Shown: one piece after another, positions 12,451 to 38,231 of the stretch
How the letters are laid out: the number at the start of each line of letters is the position of its first letter
Position numbering within the stretch: position 1 is the stretch's first letter
Assembly (NCBI GenBank): GCA_038831005.1
Contig: JAWBKZ010000001.1
Coordinates: forward strand, 124,001 to 188,000
Origin: Ignisphaera sp.
GTDB taxonomy: Archaea > Thermoproteota > Thermoprotei_A > Sulfolobales > Ignisphaeraceae
Reading direction: 5' to 3'
Length of the DNA stretch: 64,000 bases
Notes under the pieces: model-generated
Seen by the model: the letters and a program-made list of their open reading frames with translations, nothing else
What the model was told of the DNA's origin: nothing
Databases searched by the model: none
Translations under genes and position numbers: made by a program

Positions 12451-12455
12451 TCACC

Positions 12456-12938: not shown

Positions 12939-12990
12939 AGCATAACCACAGAATATATATTCAAGTGCATATAAAAATTGTTTAGTTAAA

Positions 12991-14038: not shown

Positions 14039-14710
14039 TCAGAATCGTTGAAATGTGTGTAGTTTACTGTTTACTAGAAGCAGATCTTTATCAGAGTTAT
14101 AGTTTTGGTGTAGATCTGTAGTTGTTACAATGATTGCTGTACCTTTTTCATCTACATATCTTCGAAAGAGCTTCATAACTGTTTGTGCTGTATTGTCATC
14201 TAGATTCGAAATAGGTTCATCACCTACAACTAGTATAGGGTCTTTAGCAAGTGCTCTAGCTATAGCTACTCTCTGTCTTTCACCACCACTCAATTCATCT
14301 GGATATCTGTACATCTTATCCTCTAAACCAAGGTATGCTAGAATATCGCTAACCTTTCTTCTTCTTTCGTTTCTCGGTATTCCTAGGAGCTTGAGTGGTA
14401 ACTCAACATTATCTGCAACACTTATCGATGGTATTAACTTGAACATTTGATCTATGTAGCCTATGTATTTAAGTCTCAGAAAAGCTCTCTCACCCTCATT
14501 GATACTTGTTACATCTCTATCTATAAACTCTAGAGAACCTTCATCAGGTTTAATGAGGAGAGATAGGATTTTAGCTAAAGTTGTTTTACCTACACCACTC
14601 CTACCCCTAACAACAACTAGTTCTCCAGCTTCTATAGCTAGATCTACATTATCTAGAATCTTTTCTCTTCCCATCCACTTAACTACAGACAATAATCTGA
14701 TTATATACAT
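14039..14710 (-). CDS. ABC exporter ATPase (LolD/MacB type)
   Basis: 223 residues. Walker A GRSGVGKTTLAK (about 35-46), Q-loop YIDQMFKLIPSISVADNVELP, intact signature LSGGERQRVAIARA, Walker B ILVVGDEPISNLD. The Q-loop region and the DEP(I)SNLD ending are typical of ATPases that work with FtsX-like permeases in mechanotransmission or lipoprotein/peptide export rather than import. It is the last gene of the operon with two FtsX-like permeases and a GT-C-like protein, five bases after the latter. Confidence 0.88.
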   Translation of the reverse strand: MYIIRLLSVVKWMGREKILDNVDLAIEAGELVVVRGRSGVGKTTLAKILSLLIKPDEGSLEFIDRDVTSINEGERAFLRLKYIGYIDQMFKLIPSISVADNVELPLKLLGIPRNERRRKVSDILAYLGLEDKMYRYPDELSGGERQRVAIARALAKDPILVVGDEPISNLDDNTAQTVMKLFRRYVDEKGTAIIVTTTDLHQNYNSDKDLLLVNSKLHTFQRF

Positions 14711-14715
14711 AGTCT

Positions 14716-16320
14716 CTACCTCATTAACAATCCTAATACTGTTCTACAATCATAAACTCTATTCAATGTATTAATATACATCACCAAACTCTTTATGTTG
14801 TGTATCGTTAGAGATATTACATATCCTTTATCGAAGTTATCTCTATAGAGAATAACTAGAGAATCTCTATAGCCTCTATTGGTGTAAAGGTAGTTGATTA
14901 GAGCAAGAGGATATACATATCTTCTGCTACCCATAAAGTAGAATACTTTAGCGTCTCCTAGAATCTTGGTGTTATCTATAGATGAGATATACATATAGTT
15001 TAAGCTATGTACTTCTGATTCTCTATAGATCCAGTAGAAAATAGTTCTATCTCTACCTAAAACAATGTTGCATACACTAATTACGTTCATCAACACAGTT
15101 ATCGAAACTATGAAGAATATAAAGATCTTTAAAATACTGTTGCGAACTCTAGAGACAATGTATCCCATGAGAAACGAACTCATTAACGGAAGATAGTTTA
15201 GAATTCTGTGGAATATCTCCATAAGCTCTGGTCGACTGAAATATATATACATAATGTTTATAGAAAGTGCTGTAGCTATCCCCAAAATTAGAGCTCTACC
15301 TATATCCATTTCTTTAGGTAAGAAACAGAAAAGCGGTAGCGGTATGGCTAGAGGCACTATGTATGGAACAATATCGATTCTTTCAAAAGTTACTCCATAA
15401 GCCAGTGAATAGACAATGATAGCTACAGTCATGAATATGACTATAGAGGTTATAGAGAGGGTAGAGGTTTTTCCGATACCAAGTTGGATAACCAGGGCAT
15501 AGCTTATATAGACAAATAATGTATAGAATACATATAGAGCTATGTCCTCAACAGCTATTCTATATCTAAAACCGTATCCACCGTAAATAAAATAGTAAAG
15601 AGCGAACGCTATTGCAAAAATACTTGAAGAAGATATAAGTAGTTTGAATCCTTTCCATATATCTTCTCGTTTCTTCGGCTTTTCTACGATATAGTAGATC
15701 ATTACTATAATTATAGTGCTGATCATGAACTCTAGAGTTAGAAGCGATGTAAAGTGATGTGTAGTAGATATTGTTATGAAGAGAAGAAATAGAATAAAGT
15801 AAGTAGTGAAATCAATTCTTCTCCTCTCTATCGAGACAACCATAGTCAAAAGGATTAGATAGAGAAAAACATGGGCATAGACCTCTTTGAGTATAGATGA
15901 CGAGAATAAGGCTAGAGATGGTGTAGATACATAGTACAACGTTATGGCAATAGCTATACCTTTACGAAGATTTACAGTATTCATTAAGAGGTATATAGAG
16001 AGGATCTGTATAGATGTTACAACTATCACATATAGGTAGCGATAGATTATCTCTACGTTTGTTCCAGTCACTAGCGAGTATATCGCTATAGATATAGGTA
16101 AACCTGGCCACCTATTGTTGTATCCATCAAAACGGTCATCCATCCATATACGTGCTTCAGGGTTCTCGACAATAGTTCTACTCACTTTTATCAAAGGCCA
16201 TACATCTGTTGAAAAAGGTTGATTATAGACTGTTGTAGGAGTTACTCTAAGTATTACGGCAAAAACTATGGTTGCTAAAAGAGCTATAGATGCTCTATAT
16301 AGTTTCTTCTCTATATCCAT
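14716..16320 (-). CDS. GT-C-like polytopic membrane protein
   Basis: 534 residues, with about 11-12 membrane helices and a short C-terminal exterior part. The first loop has an acidic cluster (DVWPL near residue 39 and WMDDRFDGYNNRWPG near residues 59-73), which is where GT-C glycosyltransferases such as oligosaccharyltransferase and PMT place their catalytic aspartate. I infer a lipid-linked sugar transferase or a related surface enzyme. It sits between the permease and ATPase genes of an exporter and overlaps the upstream permease gene by 26 bases, an unusual position for such an enzyme. Whether the residues are catalytic is not shown by sequence alone. Confidence 0.55.
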   Translation of the reverse strand: MDIEKKLYRASIALLATIVFAVILRVTPTTVYNQPFSTDVWPLIKVSRTIVENPEARIWMDDRFDGYNNRWPGLPISIAIYSLVTGTNVEIIYRYLYVIVVTSIQILSIYLLMNTVNLRKGIAIAITLYYVSTPSLALFSSSILKEVYAHVFLYLILLTMVVSIERRRIDFTTYFILFLLFITISTTHHFTSLLTLEFMISTIIIVMIYYIVEKPKKREDIWKGFKLLISSSSIFAIAFALYYFIYGGYGFRYRIAVEDIALYVFYTLFVYISYALVIQLGIGKTSTLSITSIVIFMTVAIIVYSLAYGVTFERIDIVPYIVPLAIPLPLFCFLPKEMDIGRALILGIATALSINIMYIYFSRPELMEIFHRILNYLPLMSSFLMGYIVSRVRNSILKIFIFFIVSITVLMNVISVCNIVLGRDRTIFYWIYRESEVHSLNYMYISSIDNTKILGDAKVFYFMGSRRYVYPLALINYLYTNRGYRDSLVILYRDNFDKGYVISLTIHNIKSLVMYINTLNRVYDCRTVLGLLMR

Positions 16321-17467
16321 GTATCTTCACCATAGCAAGTCCAATGAGTGTGAAGAATAGTATGTATATTGATGTAGCTAGAAGGATATCCTTTGATATA
16401 GCTACCTTAAGTGGGTAACCTACTATTGTTAGAGAAATAATGTTTGAGAGCATTCTAGTGGCTATTAAAGATAGCTTTATTGATGTAGCTATAAATATGG
16501 CTAGAACTATGGCTAGAGATATCTTTATCTTGATACTAGATACACCTTGTTCATACAGTACCTCGAGATTATGGCTGTTTATTGTAGCAATTGATTGACC
16601 GATCATGTATAGACCTATAGACATTATGAAGGCTGTTGCAAAAGAGATGAGTATGTAGATATCTCTAGGTAAACCTAGTCTAGATACAAGCATTTCAGTC
16701 ATATGCTCATATATATGAGGCCTGATTTCTCTACCAATATACTTTAAAGCTACAATAGCTCTTTCCATTAGAGACATTCTATCTCTATGTAGACCAAGTC
16801 TTTCAGCAAAAACTAGATAATCTTCTCTCGAGCTAAACACTACAACAGCCATAGATACATAGCCTCTAGCTACACCTCTGATAGATTGTGCCAAACTTAT
16901 CGAGGATAAGAGTTCATAATTATAGGGGTATCCAGCATCTATTATCCCTGAGACTCTTAGGATAAGAGGTATAGACAAGAAAGGAGATGAAAGCACGATG
17001 ATATCTCCAACACGTATGTTAAGCTCTTCAGCAATATTTTTGCCTACCCATATGCAGTAGAAACAATACTCATCTATATCTCTACCATCAATGATTCTAT
17101 AGTCTGCAATAATCTTAAGATCTTTAGCCTCGATACCTCTAACAATTACAGCTCTAGAGTTATTGATGTAGACTATTGCCAGGATTTGGTAGAAAATATA
17201 TTCAACATCTTGAGCATCTTTAAGCATGTTTTTGAGAACATCTGTAGATACGAGTGATGTGAAGGGAGCAAGAGCATAACTAGATACCACTACTACAGGT
17301 TTTTCTCTAAATACTTCAGGATATGCTATCTCTTCATAGATGTTGTACAGAGACTGTAGATAACCTAAAACAGTTAGTAGAACTGTTGATGTAATAAGTA
17401 TGGACGTGAATACGAGAATACAGCTTTTAATGCTCACGAGTTTCAGTATCTCTACCATCCACATCAA
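16295..17467 (-). CDS. FtsX/MacB-like ABC permease
   Basis: 390 residues. One N-terminal helix (about 15-37), a large exterior domain (40-255) with the DGRDIDEYCFYCIWVGKNIA segment typical of MacB-type periplasmic domains, then three C-terminal helices (about 262-285, 310-335, 355-380). This 1+3 topology defines the family. Its 3' end overlaps the GT-C-like gene by 26 bases, its 5' end the other permease by four, so the operon is strictly coupled. Substrate unknown; related systems move lipids, peptides or work as force transducers on cell-wall enzymes. Confidence 0.75.
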   Translation of the reverse strand: MMWMVEILKLVSIKSCILVFTSILITSTVLLTVLGYLQSLYNIYEEIAYPEVFREKPVVVVSSYALAPFTSLVSTDVLKNMLKDAQDVEYIFYQILAIVYINNSRAVIVRGIEAKDLKIIADYRIIDGRDIDEYCFYCIWVGKNIAEELNIRVGDIIVLSSPFLSIPLILRVSGIIDAGYPYNYELLSSISLAQSIRGVARGYVSMAVVVFSSREDYLVFAERLGLHRDRMSLMERAIVALKYIGREIRPHIYEHMTEMLVSRLGLPRDIYILISFATAFIMSIGLYMIGQSIATINSHNLEVLYEQGVSSIKIKISLAIVLAIFIATSIKLSLIATRMLSNIISLTIVGYPLKVAISKDILLATSIYILFFTLIGLAMVKIHGYREETI

Positions 17468-18456
17468 AATCCATCACCAGTTCTTCCAATAATTATCGCT
17501 ACAGACAAGGTTATGGTCAACAGATTTATTGTTATGGGTATCATCAACGAACTGAACGTAGGTAGAGAAATAGTAAACATGTACACACCTAGGAGCTTCA
17601 AGATCCATAGACCTATATGTAGAGCTACAACACCTACTGAAACACCATAGAGTATACCTATACATGCTATAGATAGGACAGCTAGATAGAAACATAGTTT
17701 CAGAGATATTCTGTCTAAACCCATATTGTAGAGCACTGTTACCTCATCTCTATATAGGTTCCATACCCTATCTATAGCCAGATACACAGCTATGAGGTAG
17801 GGAGCTACAGTAGCTATAGAAAGAAATCCTGCAATAGATTCTATACTTTTGCCAAGGTCTTCAACTATACTTCGTATTGCGTAGTTATGGTAGCTTCTAC
17901 AGAAGTTAACAGTATGTCCATAACCGTCTATACCGCTTGTGATAGCTATGTAGCCTAGATATCCATTACCATCGTGTAGAGCTACAACAGTTCTATTGAT
18001 ACAGTAGCCCTCTATACATACAGCAATATCTGAACCTACATCGATGCCATAGAGTTCAGCTACACCTCGACCTATAGAGAGAAAATATTTGTAACCGTTT
18101 TTCATCTGCTTGGATATCCTGATACCCGTAATCTCTCTATATATATTGAGGTTGTCTATAGAATGCATCTGTATGGTGAAATTCTTATCTCTATACAAAA
18201 TATCTAAATAGAGAACACGAATTACTGTACAATTGCTGTAAGAAGGCATATCCACGTAAACTGAGGACTGTCTACTGTAGAGATCTAGAACTAATTCAGT
18301 TTGCCTATACAGAGTGGCTATAGAGCTAGAGAGAACCGTTGCTATAGCTATCGGCAGCGATATGGAGATTACAAAAAGAATAAAGACTCTACTACGCAAG
18401 AAAATAGCTAGCAGTGCTAGGAACGTATGTATTAAGGCTCTAAGACTGTTACCCAT
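17464..18456 (-). CDS. FtsX/MacB-like ABC permease
   Basis: 330 residues with the same 1+3 helix topology as the next gene: an N-terminal helix (about 10-35), an exterior domain with SIGRGVAELYGIDVGSDIAV resembling the MacB-type pattern (here -GxxxAxxxGI-xGD), and three C-terminal helices starting near 210, 255 and 300. Two different permease genes imply a heterodimer. It is the first gene of the operon; a TTTATTTAT-like promoter element lies about 50 bases upstream on the minus strand. Confidence 0.7.
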   Translation of the reverse strand: MGNSLRALIHTFLALLAIFLRSRVFILFVISISLPIAIATVLSSSIATLYRQTELVLDLYSRQSSVYVDMPSYSNCTVIRVLYLDILYRDKNFTIQMHSIDNLNIYREITGIRISKQMKNGYKYFLSIGRGVAELYGIDVGSDIAVCIEGYCINRTVVALHDGNGYLGYIAITSGIDGYGHTVNFCRSYHNYAIRSIVEDLGKSIESIAGFLSIATVAPYLIAVYLAIDRVWNLYRDEVTVLYNMGLDRISLKLCFYLAVLSIACIGILYGVSVGVVALHIGLWILKLLGVYMFTISLPTFSSLMIPITINLLTITLSVAIIIGRTGDGF

Positions 18457-18732: not shown

Positions 18733-19005
18733 CTAGCGATCTCTCTTCAACTCTTCATACGTCACTATACCTATGACTACAGCTAGTGCCGTAAGTATTA
18801 AGAAATAAGCCATTCCAGACCATGTATATATAGGTTTACTCCAGAGATAGAACGGTGAAGGAAAATACCATTCAAGAAATCTTTCACCAGCAACTTCAGC
18901 AACTAGGTTTATCCATATATAGTTGACTATGAGTATTACTATGTATAGTTCTAGTACTAGGAGTATCCAGAAAACAGATCCTCTGGCTCTACCCATGATG
19001 TTCAC
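18733..19005 (-). CDS. Small membrane protein, unknown
   Basis: 90 residues with two hydrophobic helices (about 10-33 and 60-80) and an aromatic loop (WYFPSPFYLWSKPIYTW). No family recognised. It overlaps the preceding 183-residue gene by 17 bases. Its codons are richer in G and C than those of the surrounding genes, judged by eye. Confidence 0.65.
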   Translation of the reverse strand: MNIMGRARGSVFWILLVLELYIVILIVNYIWINLVAEVAGERFLEWYFPSPFYLWSKPIYTWSGMAYFLILTALAVVIGIVTYEELKRDR

Positions 19006-19540
19006 CCCTCCCTATTTTCGTTAAAGCTGTTCTGGCTATGAAGACGAGGGTTATTGTGAAGCTGAGGAAAGCTGTAAACATGTACATCGCATCTCCCCAG
19101 AGCAGATAGAAAGATGTATCAGGTTTTGGATTCACTTTATCGGCACCTTTTATGTTGGCTCTGAATATCTCGTACCAAATCCAGTTAGCGAGAAGAAGAA
19201 CCGTGTACACAGTTACAGCCACCACGAACCTGGACTTCGGCATACCCAGCGCTTTAGCTAGAAGTACCGTGAAGACCAGTAGAACCGTGTAGGACGAGAA
19301 CACTATAACGGATATAACCAGGTCTACCCAAAACCATGAAGGTGCATAAAATATGTAGAGAATTGATGGCACAGGTCTCTCTATATGAAGCCTCCAGTCT
19401 ATATTGAGTTTATAGACTTCCCACCACCAAACACATGCCGAAATGGTGAGCATATGCGTAAACAAGGCTATGGATAGACCTATAAGGATATGCTTAGCAC
19501 TAACACCACTAAAGGTATCGATTTTCATATCCTTAACCAT
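18989..19540 (-). CDS. Membrane protein, unknown
   Basis: 183 residues with about four hydrophobic helices (near 20-40, 72-94, 105-123, 150-172) and tryptophan-rich loops (CVWWWEVYKL, APSWFWVD). No family recognised; the overall look resembles a quinone- or haem-interacting membrane subunit, but no ligand histidine pattern is convincing. GC content is clearly above that of the neighbouring genes (many GAG, CTG, ACC and AGC codons), which may mean recent transfer. Forms a two-gene operon with the next gene. Confidence 0.65.
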   Translation of the reverse strand: MVKDMKIDTFSGVSAKHILIGLSIALFTHMLTISACVWWWEVYKLNIDWRLHIERPVPSILYIFYAPSWFWVDLVISVIVFSSYTVLLVFTVLLAKALGMPKSRFVVAVTVYTVLLLANWIWYEIFRANIKGADKVNPKPDTSFYLLWGDAMYMFTAFLSFTITLVFIARTALTKIGRGEHHG

Positions 19541-19739: not shown

Positions 19740-20693
19740 ATGGATCTAGATAGAGCTTCAAAAATAACTAGTGAGATAATAAGGTCTATATCTAGAGTGA
19801 TTGTGGGTAAGGCAATTCTATTGAAACATATACTAGCAACACTTATCGCTGGTGGTCATGTGCTTATAGAGGGTCCACCTGGAACAGCAAAAACTTTGAT
19901 AACAAAGAGTATCGCTAGAGCTATTGGGGGTGTATTTACTCGTGTCCAAGGTAATCCAGATATATTGCCCACAGATCTAACTGGCTACTATATCTATGCT
20001 CTTGACGGAACCAGAAGATTTGTGAAAGGTCCTGTATTCACTAATATACTGATGTTTGATGAACTTAATAGAACTCCTACGCGTGTACAATCAGCTCTTC
20101 TTCAAGCTATGGCTGAACTCCAAGTTACTGTAGATGGTGTTGTACATGATCTTCCGAAACCGTTTCACGTTATAGCTACCGAGATCCCGATAGAAGAAGA
20201 GGTAGGTGTGTATCCTCTAGTTCTCACCCTTCGAGATAGATTTTGGATTAGATGTGTATCTCCATACAATCCTGTAGAGGAAGAAATGGAAATGGTTAAG
20301 AAAGCTGATCAGCTGTATATTGTAGATGCTTCTGGTGTAGATAAAGTTGTTAGCATAGAGGAATATGTAGAGCTACAAACCTTTGTTTCTAGAGGTATAT
20401 ACATAGATGAGAGAATAATCAGGTACATAGCCGACATAGCTAACTATATCAGAAACCACAAATACAACAAACTTGGGTTAAGTCACAGAGGATCTATATA
20501 CCTCTATAGAGTAGCAAAAGCTTTAGCACTTATAGATAAAAGAGACTATGTTATTCCAGACGACATAAAGGAGATAGCTGTAGAAGTTCTCTCACACAGA
20601 ATTATTTTATCTGAAGAAGCTGTAGCAGAAGGTGTGAAACCTGAAGACATAGTTAGAGAAGCTCTACAGAAAGTTGAGGTTCCTAAAGAATGA
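19740..20693 (+). CDS. MoxR-type AAA+ ATPase
   Basis: 317 residues. Walker A GPPGTAKTL (about 40-48), FTRVQGNPDILPTDLTG as the MoxR-specific pore region, Walker B LMFDELNR, sensor and arginine-finger region ending in DRFW. This is a MoxR ATPase, a chaperone-like enzyme that matures protein complexes together with a DUF58/VWA partner. The DUF58 gene lies four genes downstream in the same operon, and DUF4129- and DUF4350-like genes lie between, matching the classical bacterial MoxR-DUF58-DUF4129 arrangement. The consensus binding residues all appear intact. Confidence 0.92.
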   Translation: MDLDRASKITSEIIRSISRVIVGKAILLKHILATLIAGGHVLIEGPPGTAKTLITKSIARAIGGVFTRVQGNPDILPTDLTGYYIYALDGTRRFVKGPVFTNILMFDELNRTPTRVQSALLQAMAELQVTVDGVVHDLPKPFHVIATEIPIEEEVGVYPLVLTLRDRFWIRCVSPYNPVEEEMEMVKKADQLYIVDASGVDKVVSIEEYVELQTFVSRGIYIDERIIRYIADIANYIRNHKYNKLGLSHRGSIYLYRVAKALALIDKRDYVIPDDIKEIAVEVLSHRIILSEEAVAEGVKPEDIVREALQKVEVPKE

Positions 20694-20728
20694 AGTCACA
20701 GCCCTATATATCGGTATGAGGCATAGAG

Positions 20729-21424
20729 ATGTTCACTATGGAGAACAGATATATTATTATAGGCCTAGCTATTATCTCTATATCCTCTCTATTCATCGTC
20801 TATGGGGTACTGATCAGCAACGACAGAGTTATAGGAGTGTCGCTTTCCATACTAGTCGTAGGTGTCGTGTCAACAGCAGTTGGTACAACGTATAGAGAGC
20901 CATTAGAAGAAATGTTGGAGCACTATATCCATGATCTAAATCTATTCTATACATCAGTTCTAGAGGATACAGGTATTGTGGGTAGCCACAAGATCAAGTT
21001 ATGTCTAGAGGATAGAGTTATAGTATTTTCAGAAAGGGTAATACCGTGTAGTAGAAACATATCGGTAGGTGTAAATATGCTTGATAGAGTTCCTTATATA
21101 GCTCTACCGATTACAAACATACTTGATTACATATCAAAAGTTGTTGGTGAATCTAGTGATGTGGTTGATGGATTTAGAAAGATATTCATAGATACCTCGT
21201 ACCTGTGTAGAGAAGTAGCTATAACTAAGGAGAACGATACTATATCTATAGAGTTGAGTAAATTATCAGAAAAAGCTCTAGAGATGATGAAGACACCAAT
21301 AAACATTATCAGAGTATATGTACTCACATTATTGGCACACCATTTTAAGAATGATATAGAGATAGTTGATGAAGTTATTACAGCTGAAAGCTATAAAATT
21401 ATTGCGAAGATTTTAGGTGAATGA
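20729..21424 (+). CDS. Membrane-anchored protein, unknown
   Basis: 231 residues. Two N-terminal helices (about 8-28 and 33-52) are followed by a soluble, probably cytoplasmic domain of 175 residues with mixed strands and helices (DRVIVFSERVIPC, LPITNILDYISKVVG). No family recognised. It lies 35 bases after moxR and overlaps the next gene by eight bases. Its place between MoxR and the DUF58-type genes suggests it belongs to the same complex. Confidence 0.65.
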   Translation: MFTMENRYIIIGLAIISISSLFIVYGVLISNDRVIGVSLSILVVGVVSTAVGTTYREPLEEMLEHYIHDLNLFYTSVLEDTGIVGSHKIKLCLEDRVIVFSERVIPCSRNISVGVNMLDRVPYIALPITNILDYISKVVGESSDVVDGFRKIFIDTSYLCREVAITKENDTISIELSKLSEKALEMMKTPINIIRVYVLTLLAHHFKNDIEIVDEVITAESYKIIAKILGE

Positions 21425-21680
21425 TGTGAATAGAGTTATAGTAAGTCTAATTGTTTATGCTCTCCTTACATCAATACTAACGATATTTCTTGTACTTGTC
21501 GGAGAATCTAGACCAGATGCCTATCTATCTGTTGCTATACTGATTTACTTCATATTCACAGCTATAGATAATTCGATAAGAAGTAGAGCAAAAATGTTAG
21601 CTGTAGATATAGCGTTATTAACGGTGTTCACAGCTATGGTACTCTTTAGAGTACTGATAGTTTTAGAAGTAATACGGTGA
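21417..21680 (+). CDS. Small membrane protein of the MoxR operon
   Basis: 87 residues, hydrophobic throughout, with two or three membrane helices (about 5-25, 33-48, 60-84) and a central charged turn (DNSIRSRAK). Overlaps the previous gene by eight bases. No recognised family. Confidence 0.6.
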   Translation: MNDVNRVIVSLIVYALLTSILTIFLVLVGESRPDAYLSVAILIYFIFTAIDNSIRSRAKMLAVDIALLTVFTAMVLFRVLIVLEVIR

Positions 21681-21753
21681 TGTACATAGTTCTCCGTATA
21701 TACTTAAATAATTCATTAGCAAGCTTAAGCATAGAGGGTTGATTAAAATACAG

Positions 21754-23631
21754 ATGAGATCTATAAAAAGAATAGCTAGGTATATCGCAATACCTTATAC
21801 AGTTCTTCAGATAGCTCTACTTCTGACACACATTAGCTATATCTATACACAATCTATAGAATCTTTAAGCATAGATCCTGCTCCACTCTTTAAATTACTT
21901 CAAGATACTCTATACAGTGTATTGATTAACGAGTACGGAAAAGCTGAAGCTTTATGTGGAGAAGCGCTAGTATTATCTCTACCAACAGATATATATAGCA
22001 TGCATAGAAAAACGTACACCACACTAATGAACATTATAGACATTCTTATCGATATAGAGGCAATGAAGTCAAAAGATTCGGTAAATAAAACAAATCTGCT
22101 AGCCGCTATATACAGACTTGAGATAGCCAGGTCAGATCTAGAAATTGCTGTAACAAACTATATCAACAAGCTTTCGAATATGTTCATAGATCAGGCATCT
22201 AGGTACATAATGACCAGAAACACTATGGATAGTGTAGCTAATCTGGACACAAAGTTGAGAACAATAATTATGGATCTCACTCAACTGTATCTACATGGTG
22301 AATATGGTGAAGAGCTGTATATACATATAGATTACCCAGATATTGTTGAAGGTGGTAGCAGGTATACTGTAAACATATCTATAGTTACTAGAGCTCTTGT
22401 AGAGAATATAAACTTGACACTGATATCCATATACGGAGGTGTTGTAAGTAGAGAGGTATCAGGGATAGTATCGGTAGATAGATCAATAGCTATAGAAATG
22501 ATTGCACCATCAGCTGAAGAGCTTCTGGCTAGAGGTATAAATCCTTTAACAATTAAAGATGCTGTTTTAATGGTTATAGCTAGAGCATCAGTAGAGAATA
22601 AGACCATAGGTGGTCACAAATTAACTAATCTTTCAATTGTATATAGACGCCCAAACATACAGTTTTTAGTACCAAACTATGTTTACCCAGGTCAGGTGAT
22701 AGAACTTCAAATAATATCTGGTGTTGATGCTCCTTTAAACCTCTCGATATATCTCGATAGAATATCTAGTGACACATTCATTACAAATACAACTATAGAT
22801 ATAGGGGAGAACAGGCTCTCTATAGAGATTCAGAATCTCTCTATAGGATACCACAAACTTATCTTCGTAACAGAAGCTGGAGGAAAATACGTACCTCTAG
22901 TACATAGCTCGGTTTTCGCTGTTGTTAAGCATAGGGTACCAGTTATCGCAGATGTCAGCAAATTTAGTATAATACCTTTGGCAAAACCCTTAATTAATCT
23001 GTATGTAGATTCACCAACTCTCTATAGTGTTAATATATATTTAGATGGTAAACTTGTAGCAAGCTACAGACATATAGATAAACCTAGATTCTCTATCTCT
23101 ATAGATACACCTCCAACAATTCTTTTTTGGAGATACAGCATATATATCGAAGTTAAATCCGAGGATCCTAACTACATACCCACAGATGTTGAAGGATACA
23201 TATACATAGTTAATCTACCAGTAACTACTCTAACAGTACTTGTGGTAGGAATAGCCTTGACATCACCTTCGAGCTCGAGATATATCGCTATATCGCTGAG
23301 AACTCTTGGTTCAGGTGTAAGAAGGGCTATCTCTAGATATAGTGGAGAGACAACTGTAATCGATATAGCTAGACCTAGATTCAGAAAAACTAAGTTAGGT
23401 GATCTCTATAGAGTCTTCATAGCTTTGATATCTAGATATATAGAACCTCCAAAAAGTTCGGAAACTCTTAGAGAGTTCTACACTAGATTTGATAGAACTG
23501 TTGTAAAACCTGTAAAGAGTTTTGTTAAAAAGTTTCTAGATATCTATGAAGAGGATCTATATTCAAATCACGATTTAGATGTATCTGAAGCCAAAAAAAT
23601 TGTTAAAAGGTTAAAAGATCTTGAAGATTGA
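21754..23631 (+). CDS. Bitopic surface protein with DUF4129-like cytoplasmic tail
   Basis: About 625 residues. An N-terminal helix (about 8-30) is followed by a helical exterior segment (40-180), two or more beta-sandwich-like regions (190-300 and 300-480), a second membrane helix (about 487-505) and a 120-residue cytoplasmic tail. The tail has PPKSSETLREFYTRF and IYEEDLYSNHDLDVSEAKKI, the pattern of the DUF4129 domain found beside transglutaminase-like proteins in MoxR operons. A TATA-like CTTAAATA at 21703-21710 could start an internal transcript. The start may be this ATG or the TTG at 21739; neither has an ideally spaced ribosome site. Confidence 0.7.
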   Translation: MRSIKRIARYIAIPYTVLQIALLLTHISYIYTQSIESLSIDPAPLFKLLQDTLYSVLINEYGKAEALCGEALVLSLPTDIYSMHRKTYTTLMNIIDILIDIEAMKSKDSVNKTNLLAAIYRLEIARSDLEIAVTNYINKLSNMFIDQASRYIMTRNTMDSVANLDTKLRTIIMDLTQLYLHGEYGEELYIHIDYPDIVEGGSRYTVNISIVTRALVENINLTLISIYGGVVSREVSGIVSVDRSIAIEMIAPSAEELLARGINPLTIKDAVLMVIARASVENKTIGGHKLTNLSIVYRRPNIQFLVPNYVYPGQVIELQIISGVDAPLNLSIYLDRISSDTFITNTTIDIGENRLSIEIQNLSIGYHKLIFVTEAGGKYVPLVHSSVFAVVKHRVPVIADVSKFSIIPLAKPLINLYVDSPTLYSVNIYLDGKLVASYRHIDKPRFSISIDTPPTILFWRYSIYIEVKSEDPNYIPTDVEGYIYIVNLPVTTLTVLVVGIALTSPSSSRYIAISLRTLGSGVRRAISRYSGETTVIDIARPRFRKTKLGDLYRVFIALISRYIEPPKSSETLREFYTRFDRTVVKPVKSFVKKFLDIYEEDLYSNHDLDVSEAKKIVKRLKDLED

Positions 23632-24520
23632 TAGAGAAGCTCTACTGATCATAGTTCTGTCAATTCTAACAACATCAATATCTATAGTCATGAACATGTC
23701 TTCCACAACCCCCTATAGCCCATATAACACGTACGACGATGGATATTCAGAACTTCTATCTATTACAGATAGAGTTACCGTAATTAGGGGTCTCAAAAGT
23801 ATTGAAAACAATTCTGTAGTATTTCTACCCATAGCCAGAGGTATGGATAGAGCTAGATATGAGTGGATTAAAGATATACTGAATAGAGGTAATACTGTGG
23901 TTATCCTCAATGAGGCTGGCTACATTAATGAGTTTATGGAGTTTATAGGTATAAGAGCTAGAATTGAGAAGACAAAAGTACTTGATGAGGTACATAAACT
24001 AGATTCAAGAGTGTACCCCCTGATAACCCTAGAGATCAACATCAATAATAGTGTGCATATGTATAGGGTAGCTATGTATAGTCCATCACATATAGTTATA
24101 AGTGATGTATCTAGTGCTTTTTCTACTAGAGGTACAACATCTGTATACGCTTATGCTGATATAGATGGTAATAACTATTATTCTCTAGGCGAAGAAATGG
24201 GGATGTATATAACGATATGTTCTTTTAAAGTAGGTAAAGGAGAGCTGTGGCTTATATCTGATCTAGATCTATTTAGTAACAAGCTGATCAATATAGAGAA
24301 TGCGAATAACAGAAAGTTTCTAGAGACATTGGTGGAGTTCAGGAGAATGTATATAGTTATTGATTACCTGGAGTTAAGCCCTATAGACATTATCAAGTAT
24401 AGCTATAACGTTATAGTTCCCCTAAATCTAACCAAGGATCATATCTCCATAGGATTATCTATATACATACTTCTTTTATCTATATTGGTAGTGATGCGTT
24501 ATGCAGAAAGAAGAGGTTAA
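23621..24520 (+). CDS. DUF4350-like membrane protein
   Basis: 299 residues. N-terminal helix (about 6-26), soluble exterior domain, and a C-terminal helix (about 275-293). The middle has VVFLPIARGMDRARYEWIKD and NRGNTVVILNEAG, then late GKGELWLISDLDLFSNKLIN and NNRKFLETL. This is the layout of DUF4350 proteins, which have a glutamine-amidotransferase-like exterior fold and occur beside MoxR and DUF58 genes. It begins with a TTG that overlaps the previous gene by 11 bases and itself overlaps the DUF58 gene by 20 bases. Confidence 0.75.
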   Translation: MKIDREALLIIVLSILTTSISIVMNMSSTTPYSPYNTYDDGYSELLSITDRVTVIRGLKSIENNSVVFLPIARGMDRARYEWIKDILNRGNTVVILNEAGYINEFMEFIGIRARIEKTKVLDEVHKLDSRVYPLITLEININNSVHMYRVAMYSPSHIVISDVSSAFSTRGTTSVYAYADIDGNNYYSLGEEMGMYITICSFKVGKGELWLISDLDLFSNKLINIENANNRKFLETLVEFRRMYIVIDYLELSPIDIIKYSYNVIVPLNLTKDHISIGLSIYILLLSILVVMRYAERRG

Positions 24521-26171
24521 GCTTTATCAAGTTATAGACAGTTTTGTTGTGCTCTATGCTATAGTATCTATACTTTATCTCACATTTAATGTAGGCATAA
24601 TCATCATATCTGTACCATTGGTACCTATAGCTATATTCCTGGTTTACAGAAGGTTCAGATATCTCCTACCTATCGCTATATATGTATCGTTAATTTTTAT
24701 GTCTACGGTGAATCATCAAGGAGTCTACCTATCGCTTCCTCTAGCTATAGCTACACCCTTCGTGTTGAGAGCACCTGGTGCTGGAAAAAGAGGTCTACTA
24801 GGTCCTTCATCTGTTACTGTAGCTAGGTATTCTCTTGTATCGCTACTTGCGGTCTTTATATATCCTCAAGTATCTATACCTATAGTTGTCGTTATATTGT
24901 CCACCTTCGGCTATATCTTCTACAGCTATGTAATTCTTTCAAAATCTTACACTAAAATCTTAGCGCTATCGGATACAATTCCTGTAGACAGAAAAGCTTC
25001 TGTGACTATAGAAGTCTATACACCTATCAAATCATACGTGATTATCGATCATAGCTTCGGTAGTAACATATATGTTGTTAAAGGTAGATCGATAATACAC
25101 CTTGAGTTTCCAGCTAAACATACCGGTAGAAATGTTGTAGATCTCTCTGTGTATGTTTTTGATGGACTGGGGTTTGCTGGTAGATATATAGCTAAATACT
25201 TTATAGAATACAAAGCTATTCCCATGGTTCAATATATTGTTGAAGCTGTGGAAAAAACATTCCTAGAGGTTCAAGATATAGAGAGTTTCTTATCCAATGT
25301 AGAAGTAGCTGTATACAGTTTAGATCTAGGAGCTATAGCAGTATCTATGAGTGGTAGAAAGGCTGTAGATATTATTCGTGAGTACATACATAGAGCTAGA
25401 GCACATCCCTATGCTCTAAGAATCGTTGAAAGATTTGCATCAGTTCTAGAAGAGTTATCGCATATGGTTGGTAGAGGTGATGATGTTTTTAGGAGAAGTA
25501 GATGGGGCGAGTATATGGGTGTTAGATACTATACCGCAGGAGATTCAATTAAACATATACACTGGAAGAAATCAATAAGCAGAGGCATCATGGTCGTTAA
25601 AGAATTTGGGTCGACGGTTTATGAGAAGATATACAATGTTGCTGAAGAAGGACTTGAACCTATTGTTATAACAGATCTGTATGCTTCTAGTGTTCTTGAT
25701 CTCGACAGAATAGCGTTTAATTTAGTTAAACTCTGTTTAGATATATTCAAGAGGTCTCCTACAACTGGGTGTACAGTTATTCTCGTAGTAGGAGATATTG
25801 TGATAAGTCTGAGGGGAAGAGTAGTAGATATTCTGTATAGACTGTATCGTACATTCAAGGGACTATCTATACAAACTCTATTCAATTACACCTCGATACA
25901 TAAAGTAGATGAAGGATATGTTGAAGAGATTCTCGAGATAGATAAAAAACCTAAGATATTCTCTATATACATTTTGAGCAACACTATGTATGCTGACAAA
26001 CTTGCAGAAGTTATAATTAGAGAAGGATGTATACCACCAAAACCATTTACAGCTATATATAGTAGATCACTAGAGCTTAGATACGCTATAGCTAAATATA
26101 TTCTCAGTAGATATGGATACATATATACACCTTTAGAGCTAGTTCCAGAAGTAGTTATGCGGAAGAAATAA
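24501..26171 (+). CDS. DUF58 protein, membrane anchored
   Basis: 556 residues. Four or five N-terminal helices (up to about residue 150), a beta-rich region, then the DUF58 core: RRSRWGEYMGVRYYTAGDSI (about 333-352) and KHIHWKKSISRGIMVVKEF. DUF58 is a von Willebrand-A-like domain and the expected partner of MoxR. After the core the domain continues with VIVGD-like strands. The predicted A-domain metal site is not clearly intact, which is common in this family. The gene is in the middle of the long operon. Confidence 0.85.
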   Translation: MQKEEVKLYQVIDSFVVLYAIVSILYLTFNVGIIIISVPLVPIAIFLVYRRFRYLLPIAIYVSLIFMSTVNHQGVYLSLPLAIATPFVLRAPGAGKRGLLGPSSVTVARYSLVSLLAVFIYPQVSIPIVVVILSTFGYIFYSYVILSKSYTKILALSDTIPVDRKASVTIEVYTPIKSYVIIDHSFGSNIYVVKGRSIIHLEFPAKHTGRNVVDLSVYVFDGLGFAGRYIAKYFIEYKAIPMVQYIVEAVEKTFLEVQDIESFLSNVEVAVYSLDLGAIAVSMSGRKAVDIIREYIHRARAHPYALRIVERFASVLEELSHMVGRGDDVFRRSRWGEYMGVRYYTAGDSIKHIHWKKSISRGIMVVKEFGSTVYEKIYNVAEEGLEPIVITDLYASSVLDLDRIAFNLVKLCLDIFKRSPTTGCTVILVVGDIVISLRGRVVDILYRLYRTFKGLSIQTLFNYTSIHKVDEGYVEEILEIDKKPKIFSIYILSNTMYADKLAEVIIREGCIPPKPFTAIYSRSLELRYAIAKYILSRYGYIYTPLELVPEVVMRKK

Positions 26172-26184
26172 AGGATAGAGACCT

Positions 26185-27831
26185 ATGAATAGTGATAGAC
26201 TCTACAAAATTGTTGTACTCATTCTTGTAGCTATAGCTCTAGCAGCAACACTCTATATAGCCTACAGAGACTACCTATATGTATACATAAGATTGATGCT
26301 TACAGAAGACTATAGCTATCTAGTTGTTGCACTACCTATAGCTGTAGGTGTTTTTCTGAAGGTGATATTAGATAGATTCAGTATTGAAGGTATAAACGTG
26401 TTTAGAGCTGTAACATCAGTTATGTTTCTATCGACAGCTATAACATTCTACGTAATTGGGGAAACGGTAACGGAAATGTATATTGAGCTAAAGACACTCT
26501 CTATAGTGTTTCTCTTATGGTCTTTTCTAGCTCTTTTTCTAAGATCTAGAAAATTGATGACAGGAATTCTATCAATGATGTTGCTACTAATACTCATACC
26601 AATACCTAGACCTATTGCGGATGGTCTATCATCTTTTCTCACAGAGATCGTAGCAAGAACTGCGGCTCATATCACATCCACAAAACTTACAGAATCTAAT
26701 GGAATAATAGTGCTTATCACAAAAGATTCAACTGGAATAGAAAGATCGTTTGAGATAGCTCCAATATGCAGCGGTATAGTTTCGTTTCTATCAGTACTCT
26801 CTATAGCGCCATTGGTTATATACTTGTCCTCAAAATCTAGTACGTCTATCAGAAGGAAAGCTATGTATACTACCCTCTCTATTGTTTCTGCTATCCTCAC
26901 AGTTTTTCTAGGGAATATCTCTAGACTTGTACTTATAATCTTAGTAACAAGGACTATAGGTTTTGAGGAAGCTCTAAAGTTTTTCCATTACACACCATCT
27001 ATTCTGTATGTAGCTATAGCTACGGCTTTATCGCTATACATAATCTCGAAAATATCTAAAGAGAAAGCTGTAGTGAAGCCCTATACAATTAGCTATATGA
27101 AGCCCTCTATAGCTTTCTCAGGATCCATAGCTCTTCTTCTATTCATAGCCATAGTGTTTAACGTACTAGCTCCAGCGGCTTCAACAGTAACTTTAGCACA
27201 AACAACACCTTCTGTGATTAGTTTACCCAAACTTCTAGAAAACCCCACTACTATTGTACTAAATTCCACAGACATATTTCTATTTAAAGATGTACCTGAA
27301 CCCAGACTTGGAACAGCATTAGGTATACCGATAATAAGGAGTATAGCATTCATGTACAACAACACGATATTCTTAGGCTATATAGAGGTTGCTGATGTAC
27401 CTACGAAATTCCATGGATGGTACGTATGTGTGACACTACAAGGATATAGAATTCATAGATCTTGGACAGAACTAGGTAATATCACGATAAACCATATGCT
27501 GATATCCAAATCAGGCAATATGATGCTACTTAGCTACGCAATCTACAGGTACATTCTTCAGGAAGGAACTACATACATAAGGTTATCAATAATGACACCA
27601 ATATCTAATGAATATTCAGAACAGTTGCAGATGGCTAGAGACATTCTAGGTAATGTTAGATCTATTGAGATATCTAGATCGAGAACCACCTATGTACTAG
27701 ATTTATCAATGATCATAACAAACACTAGTGTTGTCATAGGATTCATGCTTCTGATCCTACACTATCTTGGTAAATATCTACAAAAGCTATATATTCGTAG
27801 ATCTCGTGAGGAAAAGGGTTTGAATCTGTAG
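26185..27831 (+). CDS. Archaeosortase/exosortase fused to an EpsI-like exterior domain
   Basis: 548 residues. Residues 1-290 hold about eight membrane helices and the exosortase/archaeosortase catalytic triad: Cys195 in IAPICSGIVSF, Arg247 in LGNISRLVLI and His268 in LKFFHYTPS. The IPIPRP motif at about 138-143 is also typical. A further helix (310-330) leads to an exterior domain (340-505) with GWYVCVTLQGYRI, like the EpsI/DUF3485 domain that accompanies some exosortases, then a last helix (about 510-530). These enzymes cut C-terminal sorting tails (PGF/PEP-CTERM) and attach surface proteins to lipid or glycan. No tailed substrate is visible in this window. Confidence 0.85.
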   Translation: MNSDRLYKIVVLILVAIALAATLYIAYRDYLYVYIRLMLTEDYSYLVVALPIAVGVFLKVILDRFSIEGINVFRAVTSVMFLSTAITFYVIGETVTEMYIELKTLSIVFLLWSFLALFLRSRKLMTGILSMMLLLILIPIPRPIADGLSSFLTEIVARTAAHITSTKLTESNGIIVLITKDSTGIERSFEIAPICSGIVSFLSVLSIAPLVIYLSSKSSTSIRRKAMYTTLSIVSAILTVFLGNISRLVLIILVTRTIGFEEALKFFHYTPSILYVAIATALSLYIISKISKEKAVVKPYTISYMKPSIAFSGSIALLLFIAIVFNVLAPAASTVTLAQTTPSVISLPKLLENPTTIVLNSTDIFLFKDVPEPRLGTALGIPIIRSIAFMYNNTIFLGYIEVADVPTKFHGWYVCVTLQGYRIHRSWTELGNITINHMLISKSGNMMLLSYAIYRYILQEGTTYIRLSIMTPISNEYSEQLQMARDILGNVRSIEISRSRTTYVLDLSMIITNTSVVIGFMLLILHYLGKYLQKLYIRRSREEKGLNL

Positions 27832-27861
27832 ATTCATTATATCGGTTTTGGTGAATGCATA

Positions 27862-28320
27862 TTGTGTATAGATTCATCATTAATTAAGTTGAACAGTATG
27901 GTTATAGTACTAATGGTATTAGTTCTTGCTGTTTCTATCTCCAGTAGTTGTATCTCTATACACTCAGATAGCGGTATATTTGAAGAATTCTTGAAGCTCT
28001 ATATCGAGGTAGCTGATCTAGCTAGAAAAGGTGTTGATGTTTCATATATTGTTTGTAAGCTTAAGGAGGTTCACGAAGCTATACAGAACAATAGAACAGA
28101 ATATGCCAAGCTTTTGCTTTTAAACTTAAGCACAGAAGTTGAGTATCTTAGGGAAAGAGCACCCACTATCGTTATGTACAAGAATATCGCTAAAATGTCT
28201 ATGGTTGTAGCTATAGCTTCTATACCCCTAATTCTCTATATAGTGTTTCCCAGATTGTACATCTATGTATGGTTTAAAGCTAGAAGAAAATGGGTGATTA
28301 AAACTGAATCTACTAGATGA
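27862..28320 (+). CDS. Two-helix membrane protein of the archaeosortase operon
   Basis: 152 residues with a signal-like N-terminal helix (about 15-33), a helical exterior segment of some 80 residues (EEFLKLYIEVADLARKG, LKEVHEAIQNNR) and a second helix (about 117-137) with a basic tail (KARRKW). The start may be this TTG or the ATG at 27898, which would leave a cleaner signal helix. Unknown family; a helical exterior bundle is consistent with a structural or adaptor role. Confidence 0.6.
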   Translation: MCIDSSLIKLNSMVIVLMVLVLAVSISSSCISIHSDSGIFEEFLKLYIEVADLARKGVDVSYIVCKLKEVHEAIQNNRTEYAKLLLLNLSTEVEYLRERAPTIVMYKNIAKMSMVVAIASIPLILYIVFPRLYIYVWFKARRKWVIKTESTR

Positions 28321-28354
28321 AGAAGTTTTAGCAGTTATTCTAGCTATAACTGTT

Positions 28355-28810
28355 GTGGGTTCAGCTATAGCTATAGCACAGATATTGAGACCAGAGATAG
28401 TGGAACCGTTTCAAGCTCTTGGTATACTAAATGAGGAGATGAAGATAGGTGAGTATCCAACAAAAGTTTATCCAGGTCAGAATCTAGAGCTTTATGTATA
28501 TGTATATAATCATAAAGCTTATCCAGCACTAGTGCAGGTAAGGTATAAGATAGGAAATAGAGAAACATTACCAACAAATACTTCACCAAGTTCTCAACCT
28601 ACGATAAAGGTATATGAATTTCTTGTTGATGTTAAAGAGAATGTGACTAAGAAGGTGGAGATACCGATAACTATTGAGAGAAATACTGATGTAGATGAAA
28701 TAGCGTTAATCTTTGAGCTATGGATATATGATATAGATAGAAAGGAATGGATGTACACAGGTATTTGGAACCATCTATACGTGAATATAGTTAAGGTGCA
28801 AATACCGTGA
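28355..28810 (+). CDS. DUF1616-like exterior domain protein
   Basis: 151 residues from the GTG. After a hydrophobic start come EEMKIGEYPTKVYPGQNLELYVYVYN-type strands (given in parts: KIGEYPTKVYPGQ, LELYVYVYNH) and a late LIFELWIYD. This is the beta-sandwich half of archaeal DUF1616 proteins. The frame stays open to 28298, and the residues before the GTG (NLLDEEVLAVILAITVV) would complete a proper membrane helix, so translation may truly begin at a CTG at 28304 or another non-standard codon. The stop overlaps the next gene start. Confidence 0.65.
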   Translation: MGSAIAIAQILRPEIVEPFQALGILNEEMKIGEYPTKVYPGQNLELYVYVYNHKAYPALVQVRYKIGNRETLPTNTSPSSQPTIKVYEFLVDVKENVTKKVEIPITIERNTDVDEIALIFELWIYDIDRKEWMYTGIWNHLYVNIVKVQIP

Positions 28811-29358
28811 AGACCAGGTCATCGCAAAATAAGACGTTAGAAGAATATGTAGAAGAGCTATATGATAGAGCAAGAAGAGGGAGGTTCAATATTTTGAAGA
28901 ACATCTATAACGATATAGCATCAGGTAAAATAGTTTTAATGGATCCAGCTCCCCCTAGAGATTTTGTAGAGTATTTATCAAGACCAGACTATACACTATG
29001 GTTATGGACAACAATAACATTAACAGCAACTACAATAATAACAGTTGTGTTATCACCTACTGTCTTATGGATAATATATCTGAGATATATCTTAGGATCT
29101 ATATCTGTCCTCTTTCTACCTGGATACGTATTGATAGAGGCTCTGTATCCGAAAGAACAAGATCTTTCTTCACTAGAGAGACTAGCATTATCTATAGGGT
29201 TATCATTAGCAGTAGTTCCATTAATAGGTCTTCTATTGAACTATACGCCGTGGGGAATAAGACTAGAATCGGTATTGACATCGTTAACAATATTTATAGC
29301 AATAATGGCTATAGTAGCTAACTACAGAAAATATCAAATACTGAAGAAACGAGTTTGA
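28807..29358 (+). CDS. DUF1616-like membrane protein
   Basis: 183 residues. A charged, helical N-terminal region (1-60) is followed by four helices (about 66-88, 92-110, 128-147, 157-175). GSISVLFLPGYVLIEALYP and SLERLALSIGLSLAVVPLIG are the DUF1616 signature. It overlaps the upstream gene by four bases (GTGA). Together the two genes look like a DUF1616 protein split into its exterior and membrane parts and placed in reversed order. Last gene of the operon. Confidence 0.8.
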   Translation: MKTRSSQNKTLEEYVEELYDRARRGRFNILKNIYNDIASGKIVLMDPAPPRDFVEYLSRPDYTLWLWTTITLTATTIITVVLSPTVLWIIYLRYILGSISVLFLPGYVLIEALYPKEQDLSSLERLALSIGLSLAVVPLIGLLLNYTPWGIRLESVLTSLTIFIAIMAIVANYRKYQILKKRV

Positions 29359-31372: not shown

Positions 31373-31604
31373 GTGAAGGTTAAAATCGCTCTCATAGTTT
31401 TCCTCATTACTATACTACTCGTATCCTATATTGCACTAATCTACTGGAGGCAGCTGAAGCCCCCCCGAGAAACCTAGAAAGATACGTATAGATCCCGCTC
31501 CTGCCACTAGAACACCTGAGTTTTACGATCGTTTGAAAACATATGCGGCTGAAAACACTTCTCCACGATCTAGCTATCCCATTGTCAGGGACTATTATGT
31601 CTAG
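31373..31604 (+). CDS. Short membrane peptide gene broken in a C7 run
   Basis: From the GTG at 31373 the frame encodes a basic start, one hydrophobic helix (IALIVFLITILLVSYIALIY) and WRQLKPP, then meets a stop at 31475 just after seven Cs (31460-31466). Removing one C would let the frame run on through 45 further residues, including RIDPAPATRTPEFYDRL and a C-terminal YPIVRDYYV, to a TAG at 31602. That stop overlaps the radical SAM start (ATGTCTAG). The 76-residue product would thus be coupled to the enzyme. The break may be a sequencing error, slippage, or real inactivation. A role as subunit or substrate of the radical SAM enzyme is inferred. Confidence 0.55.
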
Positions 31605-33027
31605 CAGAAGTAGTGTTGATGTAGTTATTGCATTGATTAGATTATTTCTAGGGAATAGGCTTGTGAGAAGCCTACTAAGATATGCTACTAATAGCACTAT
31701 ATGTTATGTAGATGGTGCAGCTGAAAAACGTAGCTATATGCACTACGCATTATCTAGATACATAGGCTCTAAAGTTTTATGCCCCATAACATCGAGATTT
31801 ACTATAGACTTTATGTATATGCTCATTGATGTCGGTATAAAGATTCTTGGAGGCAATCGTAGAGAAATTGCTGAAATGCTTAGTGATCCAGCTGTTAGAA
31901 GAGGTGTAGAATGTGTTATGAAAGGAATAGCAGAGTATGGTGTAACAATTCCACAAATTCTTCCAGCACCTTTTCTAGTTGTATGGAATTTCACAAACAT
32001 CTGCAATCTCCAATGCATACATTGTTATCAAAAAGCAGGAAGAAATATGGAAGATGAGCTCACACTTTCTGAGAAACTAGCACTAGTAGATCATCTCGAT
32101 AAAGCTGGTGTAGCTGCTGTTGCACTAAGTGGTGGTGAACCAACACTTCATCCAGATTATCTAACCATAGTTAAAGCACTTGCTCAGAAAGGTATATACG
32201 TAGCTGTAGCTACAAATGGCTGGAGATATGCAGATATAGATGAACTTAAGAAAGCTGCTGAAGCAGGTTTACGGTATGTAGAAGTATCGATAGATTCTGC
32301 TTATCAAAGTAAACATGATAGATTTAGAGGTCTCGAAGGTTCATGGAATAGAGCTATAAAAGCTCTAGAAAATGCTGTTAAACTTGGAATAAATAGTGCT
32401 ATGGCTGTAACAATAACGAAACTCAATATAAATGAAGTAGATGAAATCCTTGATTTAGCTCAAAACATAGGTGTAAATAGAGTAATATTCTTTAACTATA
32501 TACCGGTTGGGAGAGGTAAGGAAGTTCCGAATCTCGATCTCGATCCAATTGAAAGAGAGAACTTTATGAAGAAGATATATAGAGAGATGAAGAAGAGAAA
32601 AAACGAAATATACATAACGGCACCTCAATACGCTAGAGTAGTTCTCCAGATTAGTGGAGGTAAAGAGATAGCACCAACACACTACGCTATCCGTGGCGAT
32701 ATAGTTACAAAACCTTTAGCAGAATTCATAGGTGGATGTGGAGCTGGAAGAATATATGCAGCTATACAACCAAATGGAGATGTATCTCCATGTGTATTTA
32801 CGCCTATAGCTCTAGGGAATATTAGGTACATAAGCTTTGAACGTATATGGAAAACAAACAAATTACTCAAAATGCTGAGAAATAGAGAGAATCTTGGGCT
32901 ACCTTGTAGAATCTGTTCCTATAGATGTATTTGTGGAGGTTGTAGAGCTAGAGCATATGCGTATTTCGGAGATCCTTTGGCTCCAGATCCAGGATGCATC
33001 AATACTCTGTATACAAGGATTATCTAA
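31597..33027 (+). CDS. Radical SAM / SPASM enzyme
   Basis: 476 residues from the ATG at 31597, which overlaps the stop of the preceding short gene; an upstream ATG at 31543 would add 18 residues. The iron-sulfur motif CNLQCIHC is at about residues 136-143, SGGEPTLHPDY follows, and the C-terminus holds a SPASM-type set of cysteines (GGCGAG, SPCVF, LPCRICSYRCICGGCRA, PGC) for extra iron-sulfur clusters. Such enzymes modify peptides, haem precursors or cofactors. An N-terminal extension of about 130 mostly helical residues is unusual. Substrate not identified; the coupled short gene is a candidate partner. Confidence 0.85.
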   Translation: MSSRSSVDVVIALIRLFLGNRLVRSLLRYATNSTICYVDGAAEKRSYMHYALSRYIGSKVLCPITSRFTIDFMYMLIDVGIKILGGNRREIAEMLSDPAVRRGVECVMKGIAEYGVTIPQILPAPFLVVWNFTNICNLQCIHCYQKAGRNMEDELTLSEKLALVDHLDKAGVAAVALSGGEPTLHPDYLTIVKALAQKGIYVAVATNGWRYADIDELKKAAEAGLRYVEVSIDSAYQSKHDRFRGLEGSWNRAIKALENAVKLGINSAMAVTITKLNINEVDEILDLAQNIGVNRVIFFNYIPVGRGKEVPNLDLDPIERENFMKKIYREMKKRKNEIYITAPQYARVVLQISGGKEIAPTHYAIRGDIVTKPLAEFIGGCGAGRIYAAIQPNGDVSPCVFTPIALGNIRYISFERIWKTNKLLKMLRNRENLGLPCRICSYRCICGGCRARAYAYFGDPLAPDPGCINTLYTRII

Positions 33028-34003: not shown

Positions 34004-34007
34004 AAAG

Positions 34008-38205: not shown

Positions 38206-38231
38206 ACACTCACCTCTAGATTTCTGCAAGT

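Follow-up and report, generated by a model that had tools for sequence, protein, structure and literature searches.

The window analysed in the present study is a stretch of 64,000 nucleotides from Ignisphaera sp. (assembly GCA_038831005.1, contig JAWBKZ010000001.1, positions 124,001 to 188,000), in which ten open reading frames at 19740-29358 combine a MoxR-type ATPase and DUF58, DUF4129 and DUF4350 proteins with an exosortase/archaeosortase (hereafter Xrt) and a DUF1616 protein split into two genes (Table 1). The genes lie on the same strand, as described in an earlier interpretation of the nucleotide sequence (the sequence-only reading); they are compactly arranged, neighbours being separated by about -20 to +60 bp, and neither an RNA family nor a tRNA feature was found in the region. 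The source genome (1.70 Mb, 99.5% complete) contains a single exosortase.

Regarding the individual genes, the assignments of MoxR, DUF4350, Xrt and the N-terminal part of DUF1616 (DUF1616N) in that reading passed curated thresholds or equivalent tests, and the AAA_3 and AAA_lid_2 matches of MoxR, together with intact Walker A (GPPGTAKT) and Walker B (MFDELNR) motifs, place this protein among the MoxR-type AAA+ ATPases. The DUF58 and DUF4129 identities were secured through relatives and signatures. PF01882 matches 10/12 DUF58 relatives, the window's own protein falling below the Pfam cut-off, and the signature GEYxGxREYxPGDxxxxIHWKK is close to invariant in the 12 relatives. PF13559 gave an E-value of 0.17 for the window's DUF4129-type protein and 1.1e-7 for its best relative, 8/13 members matching, and the motif ETLRE is invariant. 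The DUF4129-type protein has an N-terminal transmembrane (TM) helix, a long beta-rich extracytoplasmic region, a further TM helix and a C-terminal DUF4129 domain; this topology, as well as those of the DUF4350 and orf20729 proteins, was read from hydrophobic segments and not with a topology program. DUF4129 and DUF4350 are familiar neighbours of MoxR-DUF58.

The split of DUF1616 was also borne out. The single-chain layout, a membrane part followed by an extracytoplasmic part, was not found in the window; two genes stand in reversed order relative to it, and each fits its own part of PF07760, the C-terminal part (DUF1616C) with a score below the cut-off. Both halves are separate genes in about 40 loci, and DUF1616C is present in 41/60 module loci. 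As the sequence-only reading had stated, the genes at 20729, 21417 and 27862 matched no family at useful E-values in the family-model searches.

Table 1. Genes of the operon and of the divergent cassette, with positions counted from the first nucleotide of the window (aa, amino acids; ABC, ATP-binding cassette).
Feature	Position	Strand	Evidence and remarks
MoxR-type AAA+ ATPase, 317 aa	19740..20693	+	Pfam AAA_3 4.4e-42, AAA_lid_2 4.9e-23
orf20729, 231 aa	20729..21424	+	Two TM helices and an alpha/beta domain; new family, module component
orf21417, 87 aa, small membrane protein, module component	21417..21680	+	In 53/60 module loci
DUF4129-type protein, 630 aa	21739..23631	+	PF13559 (weak here, stronger in relatives) and ETLRE motif
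DUF4350 protein, 299 aa, N- and C-terminal TM helices	23621..24520	+	PF14258, 33.3 bits against a cut-off of 30.4
DUF58 protein, long (about 560 aa) type	24501..26171	+	PF01882 via relatives, and signature
Exosortase/archaeosortase (Xrt), 548 aa	26185..27831	+	PF09721 3.1e-14; TIGR04178 above cut-off
orf27862, 152 aa	27862..28320	+	Signal/TM, helical region, TM, conserved LPRxYxYxWFKxRRKWVV end
DUF1616, C-terminal (extracytoplasmic) part, own gene	28355..28810	+	PF07760 positions 172-276, 26.7 bits
DUF1616, N-terminal membrane part, own gene	28807..29358	+	PF07760 positions 6-121, 115 bits against a cut-off of 31.6
ABC ATPase	14039..14710	-	PF00005 5.7e-30
GTm, multi-TM, probably a GT-C/PMT-like glycosyltransferase, conserved FSTDxW	14716..16320	-	In 52/214 genomes
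FtsX1, second permease-like protein (label by inspection only)	16295..17467	-	18 module loci
FtsX2, permease-like membrane protein (label by inspection only)	17464..18456	-	Same position in L016, L046, L124, L125, L131, L132

The window Xrt scored well above the curated cut-offs of Exosortase_EpsH (PF09721, 53.4 against 25.7 bits) and TIGR04178 (35.6 against 23 bits). The catalytic residues C195, R247 and H268 are intact in its membrane core, as are the conserved H410 and C415 in an outer extracytoplasmic domain at about 365-473, and an AlphaFold2 model (predicted local distance difference test score of 87) consists of the membrane core, a further TM helix, an extracytoplasmic alpha/beta domain and a C-terminal TM helix. 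Of the proposal that this protein is an archaeosortase-EpsI fusion, the archaeosortase part holds. EpsI models gave no match to the window Xrt; PF11984 (EpsI/DUF3485) matches the same C-terminal domain of a distant 707-aa homologue (G472) at 4.9e-5, so that "EpsI-like" is a reasonable but indirect description of the outer domain. The ArtA equivalog model was not among the NCBIfam matches of nine Xrt members.

A census profile built from the window Xrt and eight relatives was used to search 214 genomes of the order, and Xrt was found in 43 of them. With flanking genes annotated by profiles built for this analysis, and linkage defined as a distance of no more than 10 kb between Xrt and a core gene, Xrt was linked to at least one core gene in 37/43 genomes, to at least two in 33 and to at least four in 30. 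The linked genomes span seven families and at least ten neighbour arrangements, in which Xrt stands before MoxR (directly upstream of it in 15 loci), between DUF58 and orf27862, beside the DUF1616 genes or in divergent orientation; since its immediate neighbours differ between genomes, the gene set has been kept while the order has not. One genome, G044, was scored as linked solely through a small DUF1616N remnant. The unlinked genomes comprise three with fragments at contig ends or broken copies (G125, G168, G169), one with a degenerate Xrt copy and a module without Xrt (G122), and two with lone Xrt paralogues (G104, G115). The same module also occurs outside the order, in other families of the phylum (G480, G515, G486). 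The MoxR, DUF58, DUF4129 and DUF4350 genes and the archaeosortase make up a single linkage unit that is conserved across families, and the sequence-only reading was correct in joining them: in 37/43 genomes the parts do not lie at unrelated loci. An adjacency of unrelated gene sets by chance, which would agree with the sporadic occurrence of Xrt in the window's genus (2/11 genomes) and with nothing else, is ruled out by this frequency of linkage and retains practically no probability.

Considering the loci without Xrt, the two sets of parts distinguished in that reading are not equal. MoxR, DUF58, DUF4129, DUF4350, orf20729, orf21417, orf27862 and both DUF1616 halves form one inherited module, of which the exosortase-type enzyme is a frequent added part. 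DUF1616N, DUF1616C and orf27862 accompany MoxR-DUF58 in Xrt-less loci as well (L068-L079, L124-L127, L134), and the module without Xrt was found in at least ten genomes, which identifies the archaeosortase as an add-on to a wider MoxR-DUF58-DUF4129-DUF4350-DUF1616 module. This persistence of DUF1616 in Xrt-less modules also rules it out as a sortase partner, and its earlier grouping with the exosortase was incorrect. A census with the PMT-like protein revealed a second module type with an ordinary 435-aa DUF58 and no Xrt in the loci seen (L124-L127, L134), the gene set of which comprises a family 2 glycosyltransferase (GT2), two permease-like genes, a PMT-like gene, an ABC ATPase, DUF1616N, DUF1616C, orf27862, DUF58, MoxR, DUF4350, DUF4129, orf21417 and an orf20729-like gene.

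Several parts of the module are physically tied by gene fusion: DUF4350 is fused to DUF58 in ten loci (L013, L018, L020, L034, L036, L051, L054, L059, L066, L071), and orf27862 to DUF1616C in L095, L124 and L125 (293-314 aa). Judging from these relatives, in some of which it is the N-terminal half of the DUF1616C protein, orf27862 is a detached part of DUF1616C. We also considered it as a dedicated sortase substrate; its C-terminus is strongly conserved and in relatives continues into DUF1616C, so that it is not a discarded tail, and this candidate was rejected. Unlike what the sequence-only reading had proposed, orf27862 is not an independent new component.

The fact that MoxR proteins mature dedicated complexes, as in RavA-ViaA (PMC3893208), and the position of Xrt directly upstream of MoxR in the 15 loci noted above would fit a MoxR-DUF58 chaperone whose client is the sortase complex and which assembles or activates Xrt. 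We regard this as improbable, because the module exists without Xrt and because Xrt homologues in other classes have no adjoining MoxR.

The orf20729 profile found members in 48/214 genomes, 38 of which are among the 43 with Xrt, related genomes inflating these counts; the loci in the other ten mostly correspond to the module minus the sortase. In profile-profile comparisons, orf20729 was homologous to the orf20729-like proteins of the second module type (E 4.5e-18) and matched Xrt-adjacent proteins in other classes (E 1.8e-7), and the latter matched the Xrt-less module type (E 1.5e-9). Its AlphaFold2 model scored 94. PDB fold searches with orf20729 and Xrt returned nothing below E 0.01, the weak Mog1/DcrB/LpqN-like similarity observed apparently stemming from the Xrt outer domain. 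With orf20729 a new protein family is established, common to the module and to distant sortases with recognizable substrates.

These distant sortases, relatives of the same two-domain enzyme of about 680-750 aa, occur in other classes of the phylum (L097-L113) without MoxR or DUF58 neighbours. Several of them are followed by an orf20729-like gene, and their flanks contain a DPM1-like GT2, a probable polysaccharide flippase (530 aa, by reading) and secreted proteins that end in (V/I)PE-x-x-G, a TM helix and basic residues. A profile of this VPE-type tail had 25 and 11 matches in two of these genomes, and a sorting role for the distant branch is a well-founded prediction. The abundance of VPE tails with the distant sortases and their near absence in the module genomes tested suggest that the window's branch uses another tail or has few substrates.

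In a survey of 39 Xrt proteins, the catalytic triad was intact in 32, the window included, and one or more core residues were lost in seven (Cys, Arg or His; L020, L030, L043, L046, L049, L053, L054), most of which still lie inside a module. Such still-linked copies, together with the lack of target tails, would be expected if Xrt in this clade were a structural membrane subunit and no longer a protease or transpeptidase; however, besides the intact majority, copies without the core Cys often lack the outer-domain Cys too, a pattern to be expected of decay and not of a new role, and we consider a purely structural Xrt quite unlikely. A separate clade of lone exosortases was observed in Desulfurococcaceae-type genomes (L055:9350-11062, L057:9311-11032, L058:729-2456, L060, L063:9594-11294), in which they adjoin an AbrB/PhoU-like regulator (by reading) as well as short proteins resembling pilins (ISPVIATLILIAIAVIAGVFVLR); in this clade, sortase and filament are possibly connected.

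Beside the module, whether or not Xrt is present, a PMT-like protein recurs together with an ABC ATPase and a pair of permease-like proteins, frequently joined by a DPM1-like GT2, and the unit is in this respect larger than the sequence-only reading had proposed. This cassette directly follows DUF1616N in L131 and L132, which indicates that the divergent cassette at 14039-18456 in the window belongs to the same system. It is not strictly module-bound, and this option was rejected; some genomes that lack the sortase-type module have it too, in many cases next to copies of the wider module without Xrt. In L130:7573-12000 (G006, same genus, without the module), a cassette has its PMT-like gene split by a stop and its GT2 in two pieces, as if decaying. 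Five small membrane or secreted genes on the minus strand (11875-13521 and 18733-19540) flank the cassette and operon in the window; none of the module loci examined contains a homologue of them. By reading only, 31543-33027 encodes a probable radical S-adenosylmethionine/SPASM protein (CNLQCIHCYQKAG) that adjoins a tryptophan-biosynthesis block at 33257-39521. The source genome also carries a second MoxR-DUF58 pair of the ordinary type without the rest of the module (L087:6560-8805; G000:C2, about 194.5-196.8 kb).

The linkage is firm, and from it we infer a mechanism. The module may encode a membrane complex, conserved in Thermoproteota-type archaea, that matures cell-surface proteins and has an optional sortase, a reading to which we assign an even chance. 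Using ATP, a ring of MoxR in the cytosol would remodel membrane partners, DUF58 and perhaps orf20729 serving as its adaptor, and DUF4129, DUF4350, DUF1616C and the C-terminal domain of Xrt would act on exported proteins outside the membrane. Where present, Xrt would handle a subset of these proteins, cutting a C-terminal tail through its Cys-Arg-His site and, like ArtA, possibly attaching the protein to a lipid, and the ABC and glycosyltransferase genes would supply or move a decorated anchor or product. Xrt-less copies would perform the same task on clients that need no sorting.

This maturation complex is favoured by the linkage of Xrt to core genes through many arrangements in seven families, the occurrence of the module outside the order, the fusions of module parts, the intact triad of the window Xrt, the distant two-domain homologues with their orf20729-like neighbours and VPE-tailed proteins, the cassette and GT2 beside modules with and without Xrt, and tree correlations (r = 0.84-0.91 between pairs of core genes, 0.62-0.76 between Xrt and the core). 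Several observations weigh against it. The VPE-type tail profile found essentially no matches in the window's genome (G000) or the other module genomes tested, and no consistent tail or common motif was found among the proteins in module flanks within the order; the cleavage and anchoring of tailed surface proteins, as put forward in the sequence-only reading, are hypothetical here. Catalytic residues are lost in the module-linked L020, L030, L043, L046, L049 and L054. The PMT and permease labels rest on weak or absent family matches: PF13231 (PMT_2) matched one of ten GTm family members at 1e-4 and not the window GTm, and FtsX1 and FtsX2 had no Pfam match, including to the FtsX model; of the parts of a LolCDE/MacB-type transporter, an ABC ATPase and FtsX-family permeases, the ATPase was matched. 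The tree correlations were obtained without a species-tree control; the weaker correlation of Xrt fits an add-on part. It also agrees, as do the complete modules without Xrt, with a conserved neighbourhood of envelope genes under shared regulation, in which MoxR-DUF58 and the sortase would each serve clients of their own and no single machine would exist. We consider this explanation possible but rather unlikely, because the linkage survives many rearrangements in seven families, in which the order changes and the set stays, and because module parts are fused.

The ArtA system of haloarchaea comprises ArtA, PGF-CTERM and PssA/PssD (PMC7157517). The window Xrt shares with ArtA the enzyme superfamily, a Cys-Arg-type active site and presumed C-terminal processing with lipid anchoring, but differs in the missing equivalog match, the extra extracytoplasmic domain and the MoxR/DUF58 context; moreover, neither PssA/PssD-like neighbours nor, with the VPE-type profile, a tail in the genome was recognized. 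The bacterial PEP-CTERM/EpsH-EpsI system (PMC1569441) has in common with the window an exosortase core, a probable EpsI-type domain and glycosyltransferase neighbours, whereas the window has a single fused protein, EpsI models match its distant homologue only, and no PEP-CTERM proteins or surrounding exopolysaccharide locus were recognized. A MoxR ATPase paired with an adaptor, which in the window is a DUF58 protein, is also found in the MoxR AAA+/VWA-type systems, such as RavA-ViaA and bacterial MoxR-DUF58 clusters including PFNA of bifidobacteria (PMC8430577); unlike these, the window carries the sortase, split DUF1616, orf20729/orf21417 and the PMT/ABC cassette. A search of the literature collection used here found no paper joining MoxR with an archaeosortase or DUF58 with an exosortase; Haft et al. 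(2012), in the first survey of archaeosortases, may already have noted such a combination.

Eukaryotic glycosylphosphatidylinositol (GPI) anchoring involves tail cutting by a Cys transamidase. The module resembles it in the putative transamidase-like tail cutting and in the recurrence together of dolichol-phosphate-mannose synthase-like and PMT-like genes, but no homology to the transamidase is claimed and the likeness is an analogy only. A GPI-like anchoring pathway in hyperthermophilic archaea, in which a DPM1-like synthase and a PMT-like enzyme would decorate a lipid, the sortase would swap a tail for the glycolipid, and the MoxR-DUF58 motor and ABC cassette would release or move the anchored protein, is very improbable in our estimation.

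Work on archaeal sortase-type processing has centred on haloarchaea, and the finishing and anchoring of surface proteins in Thermoproteota are poorly known. The module brings a sortase together with DUF1616, glycosyltransferases and a MoxR-DUF58 motor, and offers a plausible class of clients for the MoxR-DUF58 systems of archaea. Its presence in dozens of genomes provides concrete gene targets, and matched genomes with and without the sortase represent a natural experiment.

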